In this document: in pieces, positions 1,335 through 7,725 of the stretch
How positions within the stretch are numbered: the stretch's first letter is position 1
Layout: the number at the start of each line of letters is the position of its first letter
Source of the DNA: Thermoplasmatales archaeon
GTDB lineage: Archaea > Thermoplasmatota > Thermoplasmata > Methanomassiliicoccales > Methanomethylophilaceae
Reading direction: 5' to 3'
Length of the DNA stretch: 32,697 nucleotides
Assembly: GCA_012515075.1 (NCBI GenBank)
Contig: JAAYZC010000026.1
Span: forward strand, 1-32,697
Position numbers and translations under genes: made by a program
The notes under the pieces: model-generated
The model's input: the letters and a program-made list of their open reading frames with translations, nothing else
Database searches by the model: none
What the model was told of the DNA's origin: nothing

Positions 1335-3755
1335 TCAGAGGGTGATACGGACGGTCTCGCCTTCTGAGGCGAACAGGTCGTAGGTCCCCGGGTCGCAGGA
1401 GAACACCAGCACCTGCTGGTCCCGGGCGAAGTCGTGTATGGCCCGGCACGCGCCGCGGCGTCTCCCCGGGTCGAACCTGACGAGAACGTCGTCCAGTATG
1501 AGCGGCATGCGCTCGGAGCCCGTCTCCTTGGCCACCGCCATCTTGAGCGACAGGAGCACCTGGTCTCCGAGGCCGCTGCTCCACTGCCTGTCGGTCTTCT
1601 TCTCGTCGTCCCGGTCCCTCACGGCTATGTCCTTCACCCGCGGATCGCTTTCCAGCTGGTATCTGCCCTCGGTCATCAGCCCCAGGTACACGTTGGCCCT
1701 TCCCACGACCGACGGCTGGCGTGTATCGTAGACCTCGTCACAGACGCGGTCCGTCAGCGCCTCGGCCAGGCTGAGGGTCCCCCATCTCCTGCATGCCTCC
1801 TTCATCTGGACCTCGGCGGTGCTCCTCTGCAGGTAGAGACCCTCCAGGTCGCTGTCCCCCAGTATCCTCTCCATCTCCCCGTTCATCCTCCCGACCTTCT
1901 CCCTGAGCTCGTTGATCCTCGCGCCGTGGTCCTTCGTCTCCAGAGGGGCGCCTCCTTCCCCGATCATCCTCAGCAGGTCCTCCAGATGCATCCTGGCGGA
2001 GCCCTCCATGCTCTTCACGAGGTCCTCCTCCTTCTCCCGGAGCCTACCAAGCTCCCGGTTGTCCCCGCATATGCGCAGGAAATCCTCCTCCGTGCCGTAT
2101 CCTCTGAGGAACTCCTCCATACTCCCCGCGTTCGAGACCTTCTCCTGTTCGAGGACGTCCAGGGCACCGCGGGCCTCCGCCACTTCCAGGGCCAGTGATA
2201 GCAGTCTGTGGGCGCGCCCCACGTCCTGTCCGAAGGAGGACCTCTCCATCTCCAGGGATGCGAGGAGACGATCGACCCTGTCGGTCTCCGCAGCGGCCTC
2301 GGATCTCAGACGGTCGAGCTCCGCAGAGGACCGCTTGATCCTGTCCTCGGTGTCGATCATGTCCTCCAGGTCCCGGTTGGTGCCCCTTATGTCCTCCGGC
2401 CGGGTGCCGGGGAGGTACCCCAGGGACACCGCGGTCTCCCCCCAGTCGGCGGAAGGGTCCGCGGCGGTCTCCCTCCTTCTCCTGCGCGCCAGTACCATGT
2501 GTATCGCCCCGGCGGCAGCGGCGGCCGCCCCGCCTGCTATCACGAAGGGCATGAGGTCGCCCAGGAAGATGCCGGCCGCGACCGCCAGCATCCCGGCCGC
2601 CAGCAGCGCCGGGCCCGCCGCGCGGTTGGCCGAGGGCTCCTCTGCAGGGTCTCCGGGCGCCTCCAGGACCTCCCGGGCCCTCCTCAGCCCCTCATCCCTG
2701 TCCACCTTGCGGGCCTGCTCCGGGGTCATGCCCGTCTCGGCCACACGCGAATCCATCCTTCCCCTGTCGGAGTCCAGCGAGGATGCCAGTTCATCCATGC
2801 GAGCCTCCCTGGCGTCGTGGGCTCCCTCGGACCTCCACAGCTCCTCTATCAGGCCGCGCTGGGATGTCACCGCCTCCGGATCCACGCCGCCCAGATCCTC
2901 CAGCCTTCTCTCGAGTTCCGCGGAGGCCTCTGTGATGCGGGCCCCGATGCCGCTCTTCCGACGTTGCAGCTCCCCGTAGGCGGATTCGGCCCCCTCCTCC
3001 AGGGATGCGGAGTACTCCAATTCGGTCATCCTCCTCCTGATCGAGGCCAGGTTCTCGGCGTTGGCCTTCTGCGACATTATGATCCCGACCCTCCTCCTCT
3101 CGTCCCCGGCGATCCTCTGGAGCTCCTCCAGCTCCTCCAGCTCCTCCCCGGTCCTCTCCAGCTCCATCGCCAGGTCCCCGTACTTCTGGTTCCTGGACCG
3201 GGCCCGCTGTATCTCCGAGTCTATGTCCTCCATCTTCTTGCTGAGGGAGCCTATCACCTTGTTCTCGGTCATCCTCTCGGGGTTCATCAGCTCCTTCATC
3301 TCCTTTTCCAGGCCCTCGGTCACGGACGGGACCATTTCGCCGCCCGGTATCGCAAGGAACCTGCTCTTTATCTCGTCGGAACCCAGTATTTCCGCCTTGG
3401 CGAGGTCCTCCAGGCCCATTGCGAAGACGCTGCGGTAGAGCTGCGCATCCATCTTCACCGTCTCGGAGGGCAGGTGTGTGCCGTTCGCCTCTGTGACCTT
3501 CCTGCCCTCCCTCACAAGGGTCTTCGACTCTCCGCTGTCCATGATGACCCTCATCCTGCCGGAGTCCCTGCCGGTGTACGCGGGGTACGCGTTCCTTATG
3601 CTGGAGGGGAACAGGGTGCTCCGTATGAACTCCATCAGGGTTGTCTTGCCGGCCTCGTTGTCGCCGGTTATCACCGTGACACCCTCGCCGATGCCCTCGA
3701 GCCTCCTGTCCCGGGTCCTTCCGAAGGACTCTATCAGGACCGACGCTATTCTCAT
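1335..3755 (-). CDS. YhaN-like SMC/Rad50-type ATPase with internal membrane segments
   Basis: An 806-aa protein starting MRIASVLIESF. The Walker A motif GDNEAGKTT lies at residues 31-39. Long charged coiled-coil stretches follow, then a hydrophobic double segment at about residues 375-423 that looks like two membrane helices, then more coiled coil. The C-terminal ATPase half has a signature-like WSSGLGDQVLLSL (near 723) and the Walker B LILDDVLVRFD (near 748). This order, including the mid-protein membrane segments, matches the YhaN branch of SbcC/Rad50 proteins; Bacillus YhaN is longer (over 900 aa). The start is fixed by the ATGA overlap with the nuclease gene just upstream. The two probably form an SbcCD-like DNA end-processing complex, possibly at the membrane. 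The longer open frame upstream of 3755 is only a shadow of the nuclease gene. Confidence 0.87.
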   Translation of the reverse strand: MRIASVLIESFGRTRDRRLEGIGEGVTVITGDNEAGKTTLMEFIRSTLFPSSIRNAYPAYTGRDSGRMRVIMDSGESKTLVREGRKVTEANGTHLPSETVKMDAQLYRSVFAMGLEDLAKAEILGSDEIKSRFLAIPGGEMVPSVTEGLEKEMKELMNPERMTENKVIGSLSKKMEDIDSEIQRARSRNQKYGDLAMELERTGEELEELEELQRIAGDERRRVGIIMSQKANAENLASIRRRMTELEYSASLEEGAESAYGELQRRKSGIGARITEASAELERRLEDLGGVDPEAVTSQRGLIEELWRSEGAHDAREARMDELASSLDSDRGRMDSRVAETGMTPEQARKVDRDEGLRRAREVLEAPGDPAEEPSANRAAGPALLAAGMLAVAAGIFLGDLMPFVIAGGAAAAAAGAIHMVLARRRRRETAADPSADWGETAVSLGYLPGTRPEDIRGTNRDLEDMIDTEDRIKRSSAELDRLRSEAAAETDRVDRLLASLEMERSSFGQDVGRAHRLLSLALEVAEARGALDVLEQEKVSNAGSMEEFLRGYGTEEDFLRICGDNRELGRLREKEEDLVKSMEGSARMHLEDLLRMIGEGGAPLETKDHGARINELREKVGRMNGEMERILGDSDLEGLYLQRSTAEVQMKEACRRWGTLSLAEALTDRVCDEVYDTRQPSVVGRANVYLGLMTEGRYQLESDPRVKDIAVRDRDDEKKTDRQWSSGLGDQVLLSLKMAVAKETGSERMPLILDDVLVRFDPGRRRGACRAIHDFARDQQVLVFSCDPGTYDLFASEGETVRITL

Positions 3756-4945
3756 CTTCCTGCCTCCATCAGCCTCTCCGCCAGCAGACGGGACGCATCC
3801 CTGACCATGGCCTCCAGCTCCCCGTCTTCCATGGCTTCGAACACGCGGCGCACGTTCTGGGAGGCCTTGGTTCTGCATATCTCGTCCAAAATCGCCTCGC
3901 GTCCCTCGCCGGTCAGGCGGTCCGCCTCGGTGAGGGCCGCGTCCACGAAGTCCCCCGACCCCCTGCGGGCTTCCAGGTCCACGCTCTCCGAGGTCTGGAG
4001 TTCCAGACCGACGAGCCTGCATCCGGAGGCTTTCGCGATGGCCTCCGCGGCCCCCTCTGTGTTCAGACGCAGCATCCGGTCCAGGTCCCCCCTGCCGGTC
4101 AGGGTCAGCCTGACCAGGGACCCTACGCCGACCGTCGCTGAAATCTCCTCGACCAGGCCGTCCAGGTCCTTCCCCGTTATGTCGATCGAGACGCTCTCCC
4201 ACAGTATGCTGTGGGTGGGCAGGAACTCCATGCCCGAGACCCCGCCGTCCTCGACGGTGACCAGGTAGGCGCCCTTCTCCCCCGTCTCCCGGGGGTTGCG
4301 CCCCTGGGTGTTCCCGGGGTACACTATGTACGGGTCCCTCCTGATCACGGACCTGGTGTGCACATGGCCCAGGGCCCAGTAGTCAACGCCCCTTCCCGTC
4401 ATGGCTTCCGATCTGCACGGGGAGTACATGCCGCTCCCCTCGGGGGCGTCGACCTCGCAGTGCAGCACCGCTATGGTGAACAAGGAAGGGGATCCGGAGA
4501 TCCTCTGAGTGAGGTCCTCGGTCACGTTCCTCCTGTCGTAGCTTATCCCGGTTATCTCCGTCACCGGGGAGTCCGCGTCCGGGTACATCACGGACGCGCC
4601 CTCGGGAGGGAAGACGAAGGCGTTGTCCGGGAGGGGTATGCAGTCCTCCCACTCCCTCCTGTAGTCGTGATTGCCGTACGCTATGTAGCAGGGCACGCCC
4701 GCTCTGCGCAGGGCCTGCGCGAAGAGATGCCTGACCCTGGGGGACTGGGTCTCCTCGTCGAAGACATCGCCCGCGAAAACAACGAAGTCGACGTCCTTCT
4801 CCGAGACGGCATCCACTATCAGGTCCAGGGCCTTGAACGTGGCCTCCCTCATGGCCTTGCCCAGGTCCTCGTCCTCCGCGGAGACGCCGACGAACCTGCA
4901 TCCGAGGTGCAGGTCGGCGCAGTGTATGAATCTGAAAGAGGGCAT
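3752..4945 (-). CDS. YhaO/SbcD/Mre11-like DNA repair metallophosphoesterase
   Basis: A 397-aa calcineurin-like phosphoesterase. All metal-binding motifs are visible near the N terminus: FIHCADLHLG, FAGDVFDE, AYGNHDYR, then VLHCEVDAP and ALGHVHTR. The C-terminal part resembles the capping/partner-binding region of YhaO and SbcD, and the length is close to Bacillus YhaO. It should be the Mn-dependent nuclease partner of the downstream ATPase, whose ATG overlaps this stop (ATGA). I chose the ATG at 4945 (MPSFRFIH) because a TATA box (TTTATATG, 4967-4974) sits about 26 bases upstream, which fits a leaderless message. An in-frame ATG at 4969 lies inside that TATA box and is unlikely. Confidence 0.9.
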   Translation of the reverse strand: MPSFRFIHCADLHLGCRFVGVSAEDEDLGKAMREATFKALDLIVDAVSEKDVDFVVFAGDVFDEETQSPRVRHLFAQALRRAGVPCYIAYGNHDYRREWEDCIPLPDNAFVFPPEGASVMYPDADSPVTEITGISYDRRNVTEDLTQRISGSPSLFTIAVLHCEVDAPEGSGMYSPCRSEAMTGRGVDYWALGHVHTRSVIRRDPYIVYPGNTQGRNPRETGEKGAYLVTVEDGGVSGMEFLPTHSILWESVSIDITGKDLDGLVEEISATVGVGSLVRLTLTGRGDLDRMLRLNTEGAAEAIAKASGCRLVGLELQTSESVDLEARRGSGDFVDAALTEADRLTGEGREAILDEICRTKASQNVRRVFEAMEDGELEAMVRDASRLLAERLMEAGR

Positions 4946-4966
4946 ACCCTTGTATCGTCCGCGTTT

Positions 4967-4974
4967 CATATAAA
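4967..4974 (-). promoter_or_regulatory. TATA box of the yhaO-yhaN operon
   Basis: TTTATATG on the minus strand is centred about 26 bases before the ATG at 4945, so the message probably begins at the start codon. Confidence 0.6.
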
Positions 4975-4983
4975 CAGGTACCT

Positions 4984-5041
4984 GGGGGATCACCGAAAGT
5001 TCCCCCGCAGCTGGCACCGCCGGAGGGGAACCTCGTTCGGC
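4984..5041. repeat. Two hairpins in the divergent yhaO/cbiP spacer
   Basis: GGGGGA (4984-4989) pairs with TCCCCC (5001-5006). A second, better stem pairs GCCG-GAGG (5019-5026) with CCTC (5031-5034) and CGGC (5038-5041) around a GGAA loop and a 3-base bulge. Both lie upstream of the two predicted transcription starts, so they would act as DNA elements or belong to an unrecognised RNA. Confidence 0.35.
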
Positions 5042-5068
5042 AGGTTCTTATGAACCTTGGCGTATACA
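5042..5068 (+). promoter_or_regulatory. cbiP promoter with inverted-repeat operator candidate
   Basis: A perfect inverted repeat, AGGTTC (5042-5047) / GAACCT (5052-5057) with a TTAT spacer, sits just upstream of a TATA-like TATACA (5063-5068). The TATA centre is about 25 bases before the ATG at 5090, consistent with a leaderless cbiP message. The repeat is well placed for a transcription factor binding beside the BRE. Confidence 0.45.
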
Positions 5069-5089
5069 TCCACCATAAAGGGGCGCAAC

Positions 5090-6901
5090 ATGAGGAGCAT
5101 AAAGAAGAAAGTGGCCGAGGAGATGAAGAGGGGGCACAGGGGGCCCGACGCCGGATGCCCCTACCACCCCTCCCATTTCAAAGGGCAGGACTGCACCTTC
5201 TGCTACTGCCCGTTCTATCCCTGCAACGACACCGATCTGGGAGCCGACATAGGCTCCAAGAGGGGAGGGACGGTGTGGGACTGCACGGACTGCCTGTTCA
5301 TACACAGGACGAACGTCTGCCGGTTCATACTGTCCGAGTTCGAGAGGCAGGGGATAACCGACCCCGGGGACCCCCGCATACCCGGGATACTGCCGGAGGC
5401 CAAGCGCCGCTTCTTCAGGACGGGCAGGGCCCTGATGATACTGGGCGCAACGTCGGACGCGGGCAAGTCCGTGACCGTGGCCGCCCTCTGCCGCATCCTC
5501 AGCCGTAAAGGGCATCTGGTGGCCCCCTTCAAGGCACAGAACATGAGTCTCAACTCCCGGGTGACCAGGAAGGGCCACGAGATAGCCATGATACAGGTAC
5601 TCCAGGCCATGGCCGCGGGGATAAAGAACCCGGACTATCACATGAACCCGATCCTCCTGAAGCCCAAGGGGGACACCGTGTCGCAGGTGATGGTCGAGGG
5701 CAGGCCCTTCGGGGACTACGACGTCGGCCGCTACTACGGGGAGTTCGTCCCCGGACCCGGCAGGGAGATCGTGAAGAGGAACGCGGACTTCCTCAAGGCC
5801 AGATACGATTTCGTGATCATGGAGGGCGCCGGCTCCCCCGCGGAGATCAACATTTACGACAGGGACATAGCGAACATGGGGGCCGCCAGGCTCGCGGACG
5901 CGGACTGCATACTGGTCGTCAACGTGGAGTGGGGCGGGGCGTTCGCTTACGCCCTGGGAACCCTGGAGCTGCTGGAGGACCAGGATCGCAGAAGGCTGAA
6001 GGGGATAATACTCAACAACGTCCGCGGGGACCCCTCCAGGATGGAGGACGGTGCGAGGAGGCTGGAGGAGATCGCAGGGGTGCCTGTCCTCGGCATTGTG
6101 CCCCATGCCGACGTGAGGCTGCCGACCGAGGACTCCGGGTCCTTCCGCGGAAGGGACTCCGTGGGTAGCGGCAGGATAAAGGTGGCGGCGATAAAGCTCC
6201 CCAGGATAGCCAACTTCACAGACCTGGACCCGCTTTTCCTGGAGGACACCACGGTCAAGTTCGTCACGGACCCCAGGGAGATACCGGGATTCGACGCGAT
6301 AATCATACCCGGGACCAAGAACACCGTGGAGGACCTGGCCTGGATGAAGGAGTCCGGCATGGCTGACGCCGTGAAGGCCATGAAGGGGAAGGTCCCGATC
6401 CTGGGCATATGCGGAGGATACCAGATGATGGGGCGCACCCTGAGGGACCCGAAAGGTCTCGAGGGCAGCCGCCCGGGTACCCACGAGGGGCTGGGGCTCT
6501 TCGACACCGAGACGGAGTGGGACGAGTACAGCAAGAGGGTCCGGCAGGATTCCGCGGTCCTCATATCCACCGGGGAGCCCGTGGACGGGTACGAGATACA
6601 CATGGGGATGAAGGTCCGCGACGGGGAGGCCCCGCTTTTCAGGGTGGACAACTTCAACGAGAGCTTCGACGAGGGGTCGGTCAGGGAGGACGAGATGCTT
6701 TTCGGTTCCTATCTCCACGGACTGCTGGACCGGCCGGCGTTCAGGAGGTACTTCCTGTCGTTCGCCTCCAGCGGGGAGGGGGAGGTCGGCACCGAGGACT
6801 ACGACCGCGACGTCGACGAGAACCTGGACAGGCTGGCGGACGTGTTCGAATCCAGTCTGGACATGGACGCCCTGATGGGCATACTGGGGGTGAGGCCGTG
6901 A
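5090..6901 (+). CDS. cbiP: Cobyric acid synthase CbiP with N-terminal Cys-rich domain
   Basis: A 603-aa protein. Residues about 20-80 hold eight cysteines (23, 35, 38, 40, 45, 65, 68, 77) plus nearby histidines, resembling the 'cysteine-rich small domain' (PF04071) found near archaeal cobalamin genes. The CbiP/CobQ synthetase domain starts near 115 with the nucleotide-binding loop ATSDAGKS and the family motif FKAQNMSLNS. The C-terminal class I glutaminase has the nucleophile in ILGICGGYQMMG (Cys441) and its histidine in SYLHGLLD (His543). CbiP amidates the b, d, e and g side chains of adenosylcobyrinate a,c-diamide using glutamine and ATP. I prefer the ATG at 5090, about 25 bases after a TATA-like box; an in-frame TTG at 5057 would add 11 residues. 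The stop overlaps the next gene (GTGA). Confidence 0.92.
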   Translation: MRSIKKKVAEEMKRGHRGPDAGCPYHPSHFKGQDCTFCYCPFYPCNDTDLGADIGSKRGGTVWDCTDCLFIHRTNVCRFILSEFERQGITDPGDPRIPGILPEAKRRFFRTGRALMILGATSDAGKSVTVAALCRILSRKGHLVAPFKAQNMSLNSRVTRKGHEIAMIQVLQAMAAGIKNPDYHMNPILLKPKGDTVSQVMVEGRPFGDYDVGRYYGEFVPGPGREIVKRNADFLKARYDFVIMEGAGSPAEINIYDRDIANMGAARLADADCILVVNVEWGGAFAYALGTLELLEDQDRRRLKGIILNNVRGDPSRMEDGARRLEEIAGVPVLGIVPHADVRLPTEDSGSFRGRDSVGSGRIKVAAIKLPRIANFTDLDPLFLEDTTVKFVTDPREIPGFDAIIIPGTKNTVEDLAWMKESGMADAVKAMKGKVPILGICGGYQMMGRTLRDPKGLEGSRPGTHEGLGLFDTETEWDEYSKRVRQDSAVLISTGEPVDGYEIHMGMKVRDGEAPLFRVDNFNESFDEGSVREDEMLFGSYLHGLLDRPAFRRYFLSFASSGEGEVGTEDYDRDVDENLDRLADVFESSLDMDALMGILGVRP

Positions 6902-7725
6902 GGATAATGTTCCTCGGCACCTCGTCGGGCGCCGGCAAGACGACCATGGCCGCGGTCTACTGCAGGCATCTGGCCTCGAAGGGCGTGCGCACGGCGCCTT
7001 TCAAAGCCTCCAACCTCTCCCTCAACTCCTACGCCACCTCCGAGGGAGGGGAGATAGGCATGGGCCAGGCGTTCCAGGCCTGGGCCTGCGGCGCGGAGCC
7101 CTCCGTGGAGATGAACCCCGTGCTGCTGAAGCCATCCGGAGGCAGGATGCAGGTCATACTGAGGGGCAGGCCCTTCGCGGAGGCCTCCGTGGGCCAGGAT
7201 CCTGACACGGAGATGATGGCGGCCGAGGCGTTCCGGGCGTTCGACTCCCTGTCCTCCCGCTACGACGCGGTGGTCTGCGAGGGATCGGGGTCTCCGGCGG
7301 AGATCAACCTGCTGGACAGGGACATCGCCAACATGAGGATGGTCCGCGAAAGGGGCATACCCGCGGTCCTGGTCGCCGACATCGAGAGAGGAGGGGTGTT
7401 CGCCGTGATATACGGCACGTGGAGGCTGATACCGGAGGAGGACAGGCACCTGCTCAGAGGATTCATAATAAACAGGTTCCGCGGGGACCCCTCGCTGCTC
7501 CGTTCCGGGATAGAGAGGATGGAGGAGCTCACGGGGATGAAGTGCCTGGGCGTCATGCCCTACGCGGATCTGAGGTTCCCGGAGGAGGATTCGCTCTCCG
7601 AGGGCCGCGGCAGGCTGGAGGGAGGGGACCTGCGCGGAGCATTCATGGACAACCTGGACGAGCTGCTGGAGATCGCCAGGGAATCGCTGGACATGAGGGC
7701 GCTGGACAGGATCGCCGGCGGATGA
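6898..7725 (+). CDS. CbiP-like ATP-dependent synthetase domain protein lacking glutaminase
   Basis: A 275-aa paralogue of the preceding CbiP. It starts at a GTG that overlaps the cbiP stop (GTGA) with a GGTGAGG ribosome-binding site. It keeps the P-loop (GTSSGAGKTT, residues 7-16), the FKASNLSLNS motif, the central GSGSPAEINLLDRDIANM block, and IINRFRGDPS...MPYADLRFPEEDS. The glutaminase domain is absent. The last residues (DNLDELLEIARESLDMRAL) still resemble the extreme C terminus of CbiP (ENLDRLADVFESSLDMDAL), so it looks like an internal deletion rather than a simple truncation. Without glutaminase it would need free ammonia, the CbiP glutaminase in trans, or a different acceptor. It may act on a cobalamin-type intermediate; its real substrate is unknown. 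Confidence 0.85.
   Translation: MRIMFLGTSSGAGKTTMAAVYCRHLASKGVRTAPFKASNLSLNSYATSEGGEIGMGQAFQAWACGAEPSVEMNPVLLKPSGGRMQVILRGRPFAEASVGQDPDTEMMAAEAFRAFDSLSSRYDAVVCEGSGSPAEINLLDRDIANMRMVRERGIPAVLVADIERGGVFAVIYGTWRLIPEEDRHLLRGFIINRFRGDPSLLRSGIERMEELTGMKCLGVMPYADLRFPEEDSLSEGRGRLEGGDLRGAFMDNLDELLEIARESLDMRALDRIAGG

Follow-up and report, generated by a model that had tools for sequence, protein, structure and literature searches.

The locus described here raises the question of whether a CbiP-type synthetase that has no glutaminase domain, encoded immediately behind a full-length CbiP, is a working protein and, if so, what it does. The stretch of DNA that was analysed, designated the window, is an entire contig of 32,697 bp from an archaeal genome of 0.99 Mb (78.6% complete), whose named relatives are Methanomassiliicoccales, mostly Methanomethylophilaceae. 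The Methanomassiliicoccales are methanogens that depend on corrinoid methyltransferases.

PMC7242693, citing Williams 2007, describes CbiP as a single polypeptide that performs four amidations in sequence. The survey of 243 Methanomassiliicoccales genomes in PMC10804542 covers genes for both the synthesis and the salvage of B12 and does not mention, in its passages on these genes, the gene pair described below. No publication that treats a second or shortened CbiP of Methanomassiliicoccales was found in the literature search, and nothing in the literature searched describes a conserved CbiP without glutaminase that is coupled to a modified full-length one. What is already known is that glutaminase and synthetase can reside on separate chains (MurT-GatD) and that stand-alone synthetases of this fold exist (BioD).

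The short protein and its gene

The features of the locus, in window coordinates, are:
5057..6901, + strand, partner gene encoding zf-CbiP, a full-length CbiP with an N-terminal zf-like domain; the true start is likely the ATG at 5090
5150..5344, + strand, PF04071 zf-like Cys-rich domain of the partner; 7 Cys and 2 His are invariant in the aligned relatives
6179..6739, + strand, GATase_3 glutaminase domain of the partner (Pfam), missing from the short paralogue
6889..6901, + strand, SD-like GGTGA at 6889-6893, then the GTGA start/stop overlap at 6898-6901
6898..7725, + strand, short glutaminase-less CbiP-type synthetase, 275 aa, GTG start at 6898, TGA stop at 7723-7725
within 6898..7725, + strand, motifs of the short protein: P-loop GTSSGAGKTT, EGSGSPAEIN, DIERGG, NRFRGD and EDS
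7642..7722, + strand, C-terminal tail of the short protein, ending DNLDELLEIARESLDMRALDRIAGG, homologous to the extreme CbiP C-terminus

The position, strand and start of the short gene agreed with the preliminary description, and its overlap with cbiP is 4 nt, the GTG start at 6898 running into the cbiP stop codon (TGA, 6899-6901). The overlap and the preceding GGTGA suggest, on the nucleotide sequence, that the two genes may be translationally coupled. The short gene had been placed directly after a full-length cbiP, which is correct as to adjacency and length, but the neighbour is an unusual CbiP that carries the PF04071 domain and an altered synthetase motif. Divergently upstream of cbiP lies a Rad50/Mre11-like nuclease gene pair (window 1335-5017, - strand); similar neighbours were also seen in L085 (G010).

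In the short protein, Pfam recognised the CbiA nucleotide-binding domain with an overlapping AAA_26 match and nothing else, whereas the upstream partner gave CbiA, GATase_3 and the zf-like domain. No GATase match was obtained, and the glutaminase domain was absent across the whole clade of short proteins, so that the described loss of the entire domain was borne out. The two proteins are about 45% identical across the synthetase domain. The NCBIfam cobyric acid synthase model, NF001989, matched the short protein with 320.5 bits (cut-off 273) over profile positions 3-238 of 480 only, and TIGR00313 gave 288.3 bits, below its curated cut-off of 309.9. Because the score exceeds the NF001989 cut-off, the short protein is probably annotated automatically as 'cobyric acid synthase', a label that hides it.

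The canonical reference for residue conservation consisted of 26 CbiPs, plasmid-borne bacterial and haloarchaeal proteins together with Thermoplasmatota sequences, with the 506-aa Salmonella protein setting the numbering. The P-loop and the substrate-side blocks, which had been described as kept, are indeed conserved: the invariant canonical residues S12, G15, K16, P36, K38, N41, E132, G133, G135, E139, N141, D146, N149, D165, G169, G170, E234 and D235 were found at 97-100% in the short clade. Mutation of D146 in Salmonella CbiP is reported to blur the order of the amidations. The P-loop form SGAGKT, as opposed to SDAGKS, was considered as a meaningful CbiA-like trait and dropped; canonical CbiPs themselves vary at this position (G in 10, D in 7 and N in 4 of the 26).

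When a profile was built from the C-termini of the short clade, it aligned, past the glutaminase domain, with the very end of both canonical CbiP (P 8e-5) and the partner (P 8e-6). A search by sequence for a solved CbiP structure found none. The AlphaFold model of the short protein (pLDDT 91.2, pTM 0.91) is a complete dethiobiotin-synthetase-like fold that includes the tail, with helices predicted at high confidence for residues 245-263 and 266-274, in keeping with the retained CbiP C-terminal helix noted earlier. Since the tail is part of this confidently predicted fold, it has probably been kept for a structural reason: as modelled, it completes the synthetase fold, and the glutaminase would be inserted before it.

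Comparison with known systems places the short protein close to CbiP/CobQ (NF001989, TIGR00313), with which it shares the synthetase domain, the P-loop, the CbiP-specific substrate blocks, D146, the tail and the gene context. What sets it apart from CbiP proper is the defining glutaminase domain, looked for and absent: the whole of GATase_3, with its catalytic Cys and His, is gone. Its gene also follows that of a full-length paralogue and persists in genomes that have no corrin-ring genes. Dethiobiotin synthetase (BioD), also a stand-alone synthetase without a glutaminase, has the same fold and provided the best PDB matches (E 1.3e-9, probability 1.00), but identity is about 16-19%, the motifs are those of CbiP rather than BioD, and no BioD family model was among the profile matches to the short protein. 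The CbiA/CfbB a,c-diamide synthases belong to the same superfamily (synthetase plus GATase_3), although their profile matches to the short protein were marginal, 23.9 bits or less; separate CbiA/CfbB-type proteins are present in most genomes that carry the pair. In the MurT-GatD lipid II isoglutaminyl synthase, the synthetase and a CobB/CobQ-type glutaminase are separate, co-encoded polypeptides (PMC3267633). In that enzyme a Mur-family ligase works with a split-off glutaminase, whereas here it is the CbiP synthetase that is split off, and the partner, co-encoded by an overlapping gene, is a complete CbiP.

Distribution, age and selection

The distribution of the pair was determined in 61 genomes of the order Methanomassiliicoccales, the window's own and 60 relatives. 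The zf-CbiP and short genes occur together in 46 of the 61, in four families (f1, f2, f4 and f6), and the exact 4-nt overlap was present in 66 of the 83 loci read. The short proteins, which vary little in length over about 73 distinct sequences, form a single clade with a support of 100/100, as do the zf-CbiPs (100/100). A glutaminase-less clade in related archaea, which a phylogeny had been expected to reveal if it existed, is therefore real and old; the opposite pattern, relatives with a full domain and this copy alone recently truncated, was looked for across the 61 genomes and was not seen. An AU test of the two clades as sisters, which would correspond to a tandem duplication inside the order, gave p 0.425 and speaks neither for nor against it.

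Values of dN/dS among close pairs of short proteins were mostly 0.05-0.17, with those of the partner close by (0.04-0.11). The short clade is thus under purifying selection. The preliminary description had taken the retained tail to suggest a working, specialised protein. Purifying selection and the intact active-site residues agree with this, and we infer that the protein is catalytically active.

No short form was seen outside the Methanomassiliicoccales among 285 genomes of the phylum, where other members with a match had a single CbiP, mostly of about 470-520 aa. Among plasmid records (best 40 of 183 matches, ten loci read), there was no conserved short form outside Thermoplasmatota. One broken CbiP copy, which looks frame-shifted, was noted in a plasmid record (L112).

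The diverged full-length partner

The full-length partner is, judged by its sequence, the diverged member of the pair: a Cys-rich domain has been added and the charges at D165, R168 and K197 have been lost. The window's partner has the glutaminase residues Cys452 and His554 but reads NVEWGG where the canonical motif is D-I-D/E-R-G-G. In the alignment of zf-CbiPs (Salmonella numbering), D165 is replaced by N in 84 of 84 rows, R168 by W in 78 of 84 and K/R197 by N in 84 of 84, while the P-loop, E132 and E139 are retained, and the glutaminase Cys and His are present in nearly all. Because the diverged synthetase motif sits in the full-length partner, the division of labour between the two proteins looks reciprocal.

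The PF04071 domain was found in Methanomassiliicoccales only among the 133 genomes searched, apart from one sub-threshold match elsewhere. In Sulfurospirillum (L113:5006-5263), an annotated stand-alone Cys-rich small-domain protein is encoded between cobT and cobS, which hints at a cobamide-related role of the domain on its own.

Several genomes have gone further. In G053 (L076:2179-3375), the zf-CbiP is 398 aa long, with the glutaminase domain cleanly deleted and the C-terminal tail kept; the stretch was read without Ns, and an assembly error is still possible. The zf-CbiP glutaminase of G002 (L084) has neither the catalytic Cys nor the His, and in G008 (L083) the catalytic Cys is replaced by Ser. 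Glutaminase loss is therefore recurrent in this system, three lineages having a partner with the domain deleted or catalytic residues gone. As these three genomes keep the short protein, borrowing of the partner's glutaminase is not universal, and their pairs must obtain ammonia elsewhere.

Conversely, the ATPase site has been destroyed in the zf-CbiPs of G001 (L116:3816-5624), G024 and G034 (the set of loci also comprises L117 and L118); the P-loop and EGAGSPAEIN are gone, although the glutaminase Cys and the Cys-rich domain are still there. None of these three genomes has the short gene, and CbiB, CbiC and CbiD are likewise missing from them. The ATPase-dead zf-CbiP of L116 lies near cobS-like and cobT-like genes. 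In G038 (L081, family f3, 99% complete), a zf-CbiP with NIEWGG stands beside a CbiA-type gene and there is no short paralogue, so that an altered-motif zf-CbiP can persist without the short protein.

A putative two-subunit cobyric acid synthase and its alternatives

The leading reading, to which we give about even credence, is that cobyric acid synthase consists here of two subunits, the short protein being its synthetase subunit, with the partner's glutaminase or cellular ammonia as the nitrogen source. The short gene product, a CbiP synthetase domain plus tail with no ammonia source of its own, would be an ATP-dependent corrinoid-carboxylate amide synthetase, and it and the probably translationally coupled zf-CbiP would be the two halves of the enzyme. 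ATP would phosphorylate the side-chain carboxylates of the corrinoid at BioD-like P-loop sites, and ammonia would come from the glutaminase domain of the partner, or, where the partner no longer has it, from free ammonium. Pairing of the two synthetase domains may follow the dethiobiotin synthetase dimer. In BioD, the loop that corresponds to the one altered in zf-CbiP presumably reaches across the dimer to substrate held by the other subunit; a mixed dimer would then regain, in trans from the short protein's canonical DIERGG, the element lost by zf-CbiP.

Several observations count in favour of this two-subunit reading: 1) both genes occur together in 46 of 61 genomes, 2) they overlap by 4 nt in 66 of 83 loci, 3) the short proteins are a single clade under purifying selection, with their synthetase residues kept and a complete predicted fold, 4) it is the partner whose synthetase motif has diverged, with its P-loop and, in nearly all cases, its glutaminase residues retained, 5) the gene neighbours described below are corrinoid genes, and 6) the three genomes whose partner has a ruined ATPase site (G001, G024 and G034) have no short gene either. 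The main point against an obligate complex is G038, with its altered-motif zf-CbiP and no short gene. If the order-wide lineage does split the work of CbiP over two synthetase domains, as appears to be the case, it could serve as a natural experiment in what sets the sequence and specificity of the amidations.

The genomic context identifies the field in which the pair acts. Corrinoid metabolism is indicated by the gene neighbours in G037, where the pair is at the head of a cluster (L066) that continues with a BtuFCD-like transporter, cobD, cbiB, cbiS and a cobY-like gene, and in G044 (L070), where the order is cbiM, cbiA(-type), cbiP and the short gene. CbiD and CbiC were each found in 32 of the 61 genomes, and these are the same genomes. 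The pair occurs without cbiC and cbiD in 15 genomes, of which nine reach a completeness of 94% or more (G006, G008, G013, G037, G042, G045, G051, G057 and G059); the loci listed for this situation are L066, L069, L071, L075 and L077. Since the pair persists without these genes, at least part of its job would be on imported corrinoids, independent of de novo ring synthesis, and its survival in such genomes raises the question of how imported corrinoids are used in Methanomassiliicoccales. No CbiA/CfbB-type protein beyond marginal matches was found in G006, G037, G042, G045 and G057, which in a methanogen would mean no F430.

A more specific form of the two-subunit reading is a reciprocal specialisation in which ammonia and a modified synthetase site come from zf-CbiP, DIERGG is contributed in trans by the short protein, and the pair in salvage-only genomes re-amidates imported or damaged corrinoids. 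This is tentative, and we lean against it in its full form; we know of no corrinoid-repair activity in archaea.

A rather unlikely alternative is that the short protein is no subunit at all but an independent synthetase of corrinoid amides that draws on the free ammonium abundant in guts and digesters. Ammonia- and glutamine-dependent forms exist separately in other synthetase families, the glutaminase is missing from the short protein in all relatives, and the partner has lost glutaminase function in the three lineages described above. The glutaminase Cys and His are intact in most partners, however, and the adjacency and 4-nt overlap with zf-CbiP indicate a joint function.

It is unlikely that the short protein instead uses some amine in place of ammonia to form another corrinoid amide or ligation product, or that the pair serves to repair imported corrinoids that are damaged or have lost amide groups. 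The 15 genomes without cbiC and cbiD, among them five near-complete ones that also have no clear CbiA/CfbB-type protein, favour such a role, given that amidation of the b, d, e and g positions of a newly made ring should be needless in a salvage-only cell, as does the salvage cluster of L066, with its CbiS and BtuFCD-like transporter. On the other hand, the substrate-side motifs are ordinary CbiP ones, and no ligation step is visibly missing, CbiB being encoded alongside the pair in nearly all pair-bearing genomes. CbiB is the enzyme that attaches aminopropanol, and the short protein was for the same reason rejected as a substitute for it.

That the short protein serves zf-CbiP as a scaffold or regulator, without catalysis of its own, is very unlikely. 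The substrate loop SLNS is changed to SSKT, SSSW or SSKS in the divergent L076, L023 and L083, as might be expected of such a protein, but a scaffold would not need Lys14, Glu128, Glu135, Asn137, Glu230 and Asp231 (short-protein numbering), which are invariant in about 70 sequences. Finally, recent truncation, a pseudogene or an assembly artefact, for which the missing domain alone could be cited, has a negligible probability, truncation being ruled out by the distribution over 46 of 61 genomes and four families, the 100/100 support of an old clade, the near-constant length of its roughly 73 distinct sequences and the dN/dS values characteristic of purifying selection.
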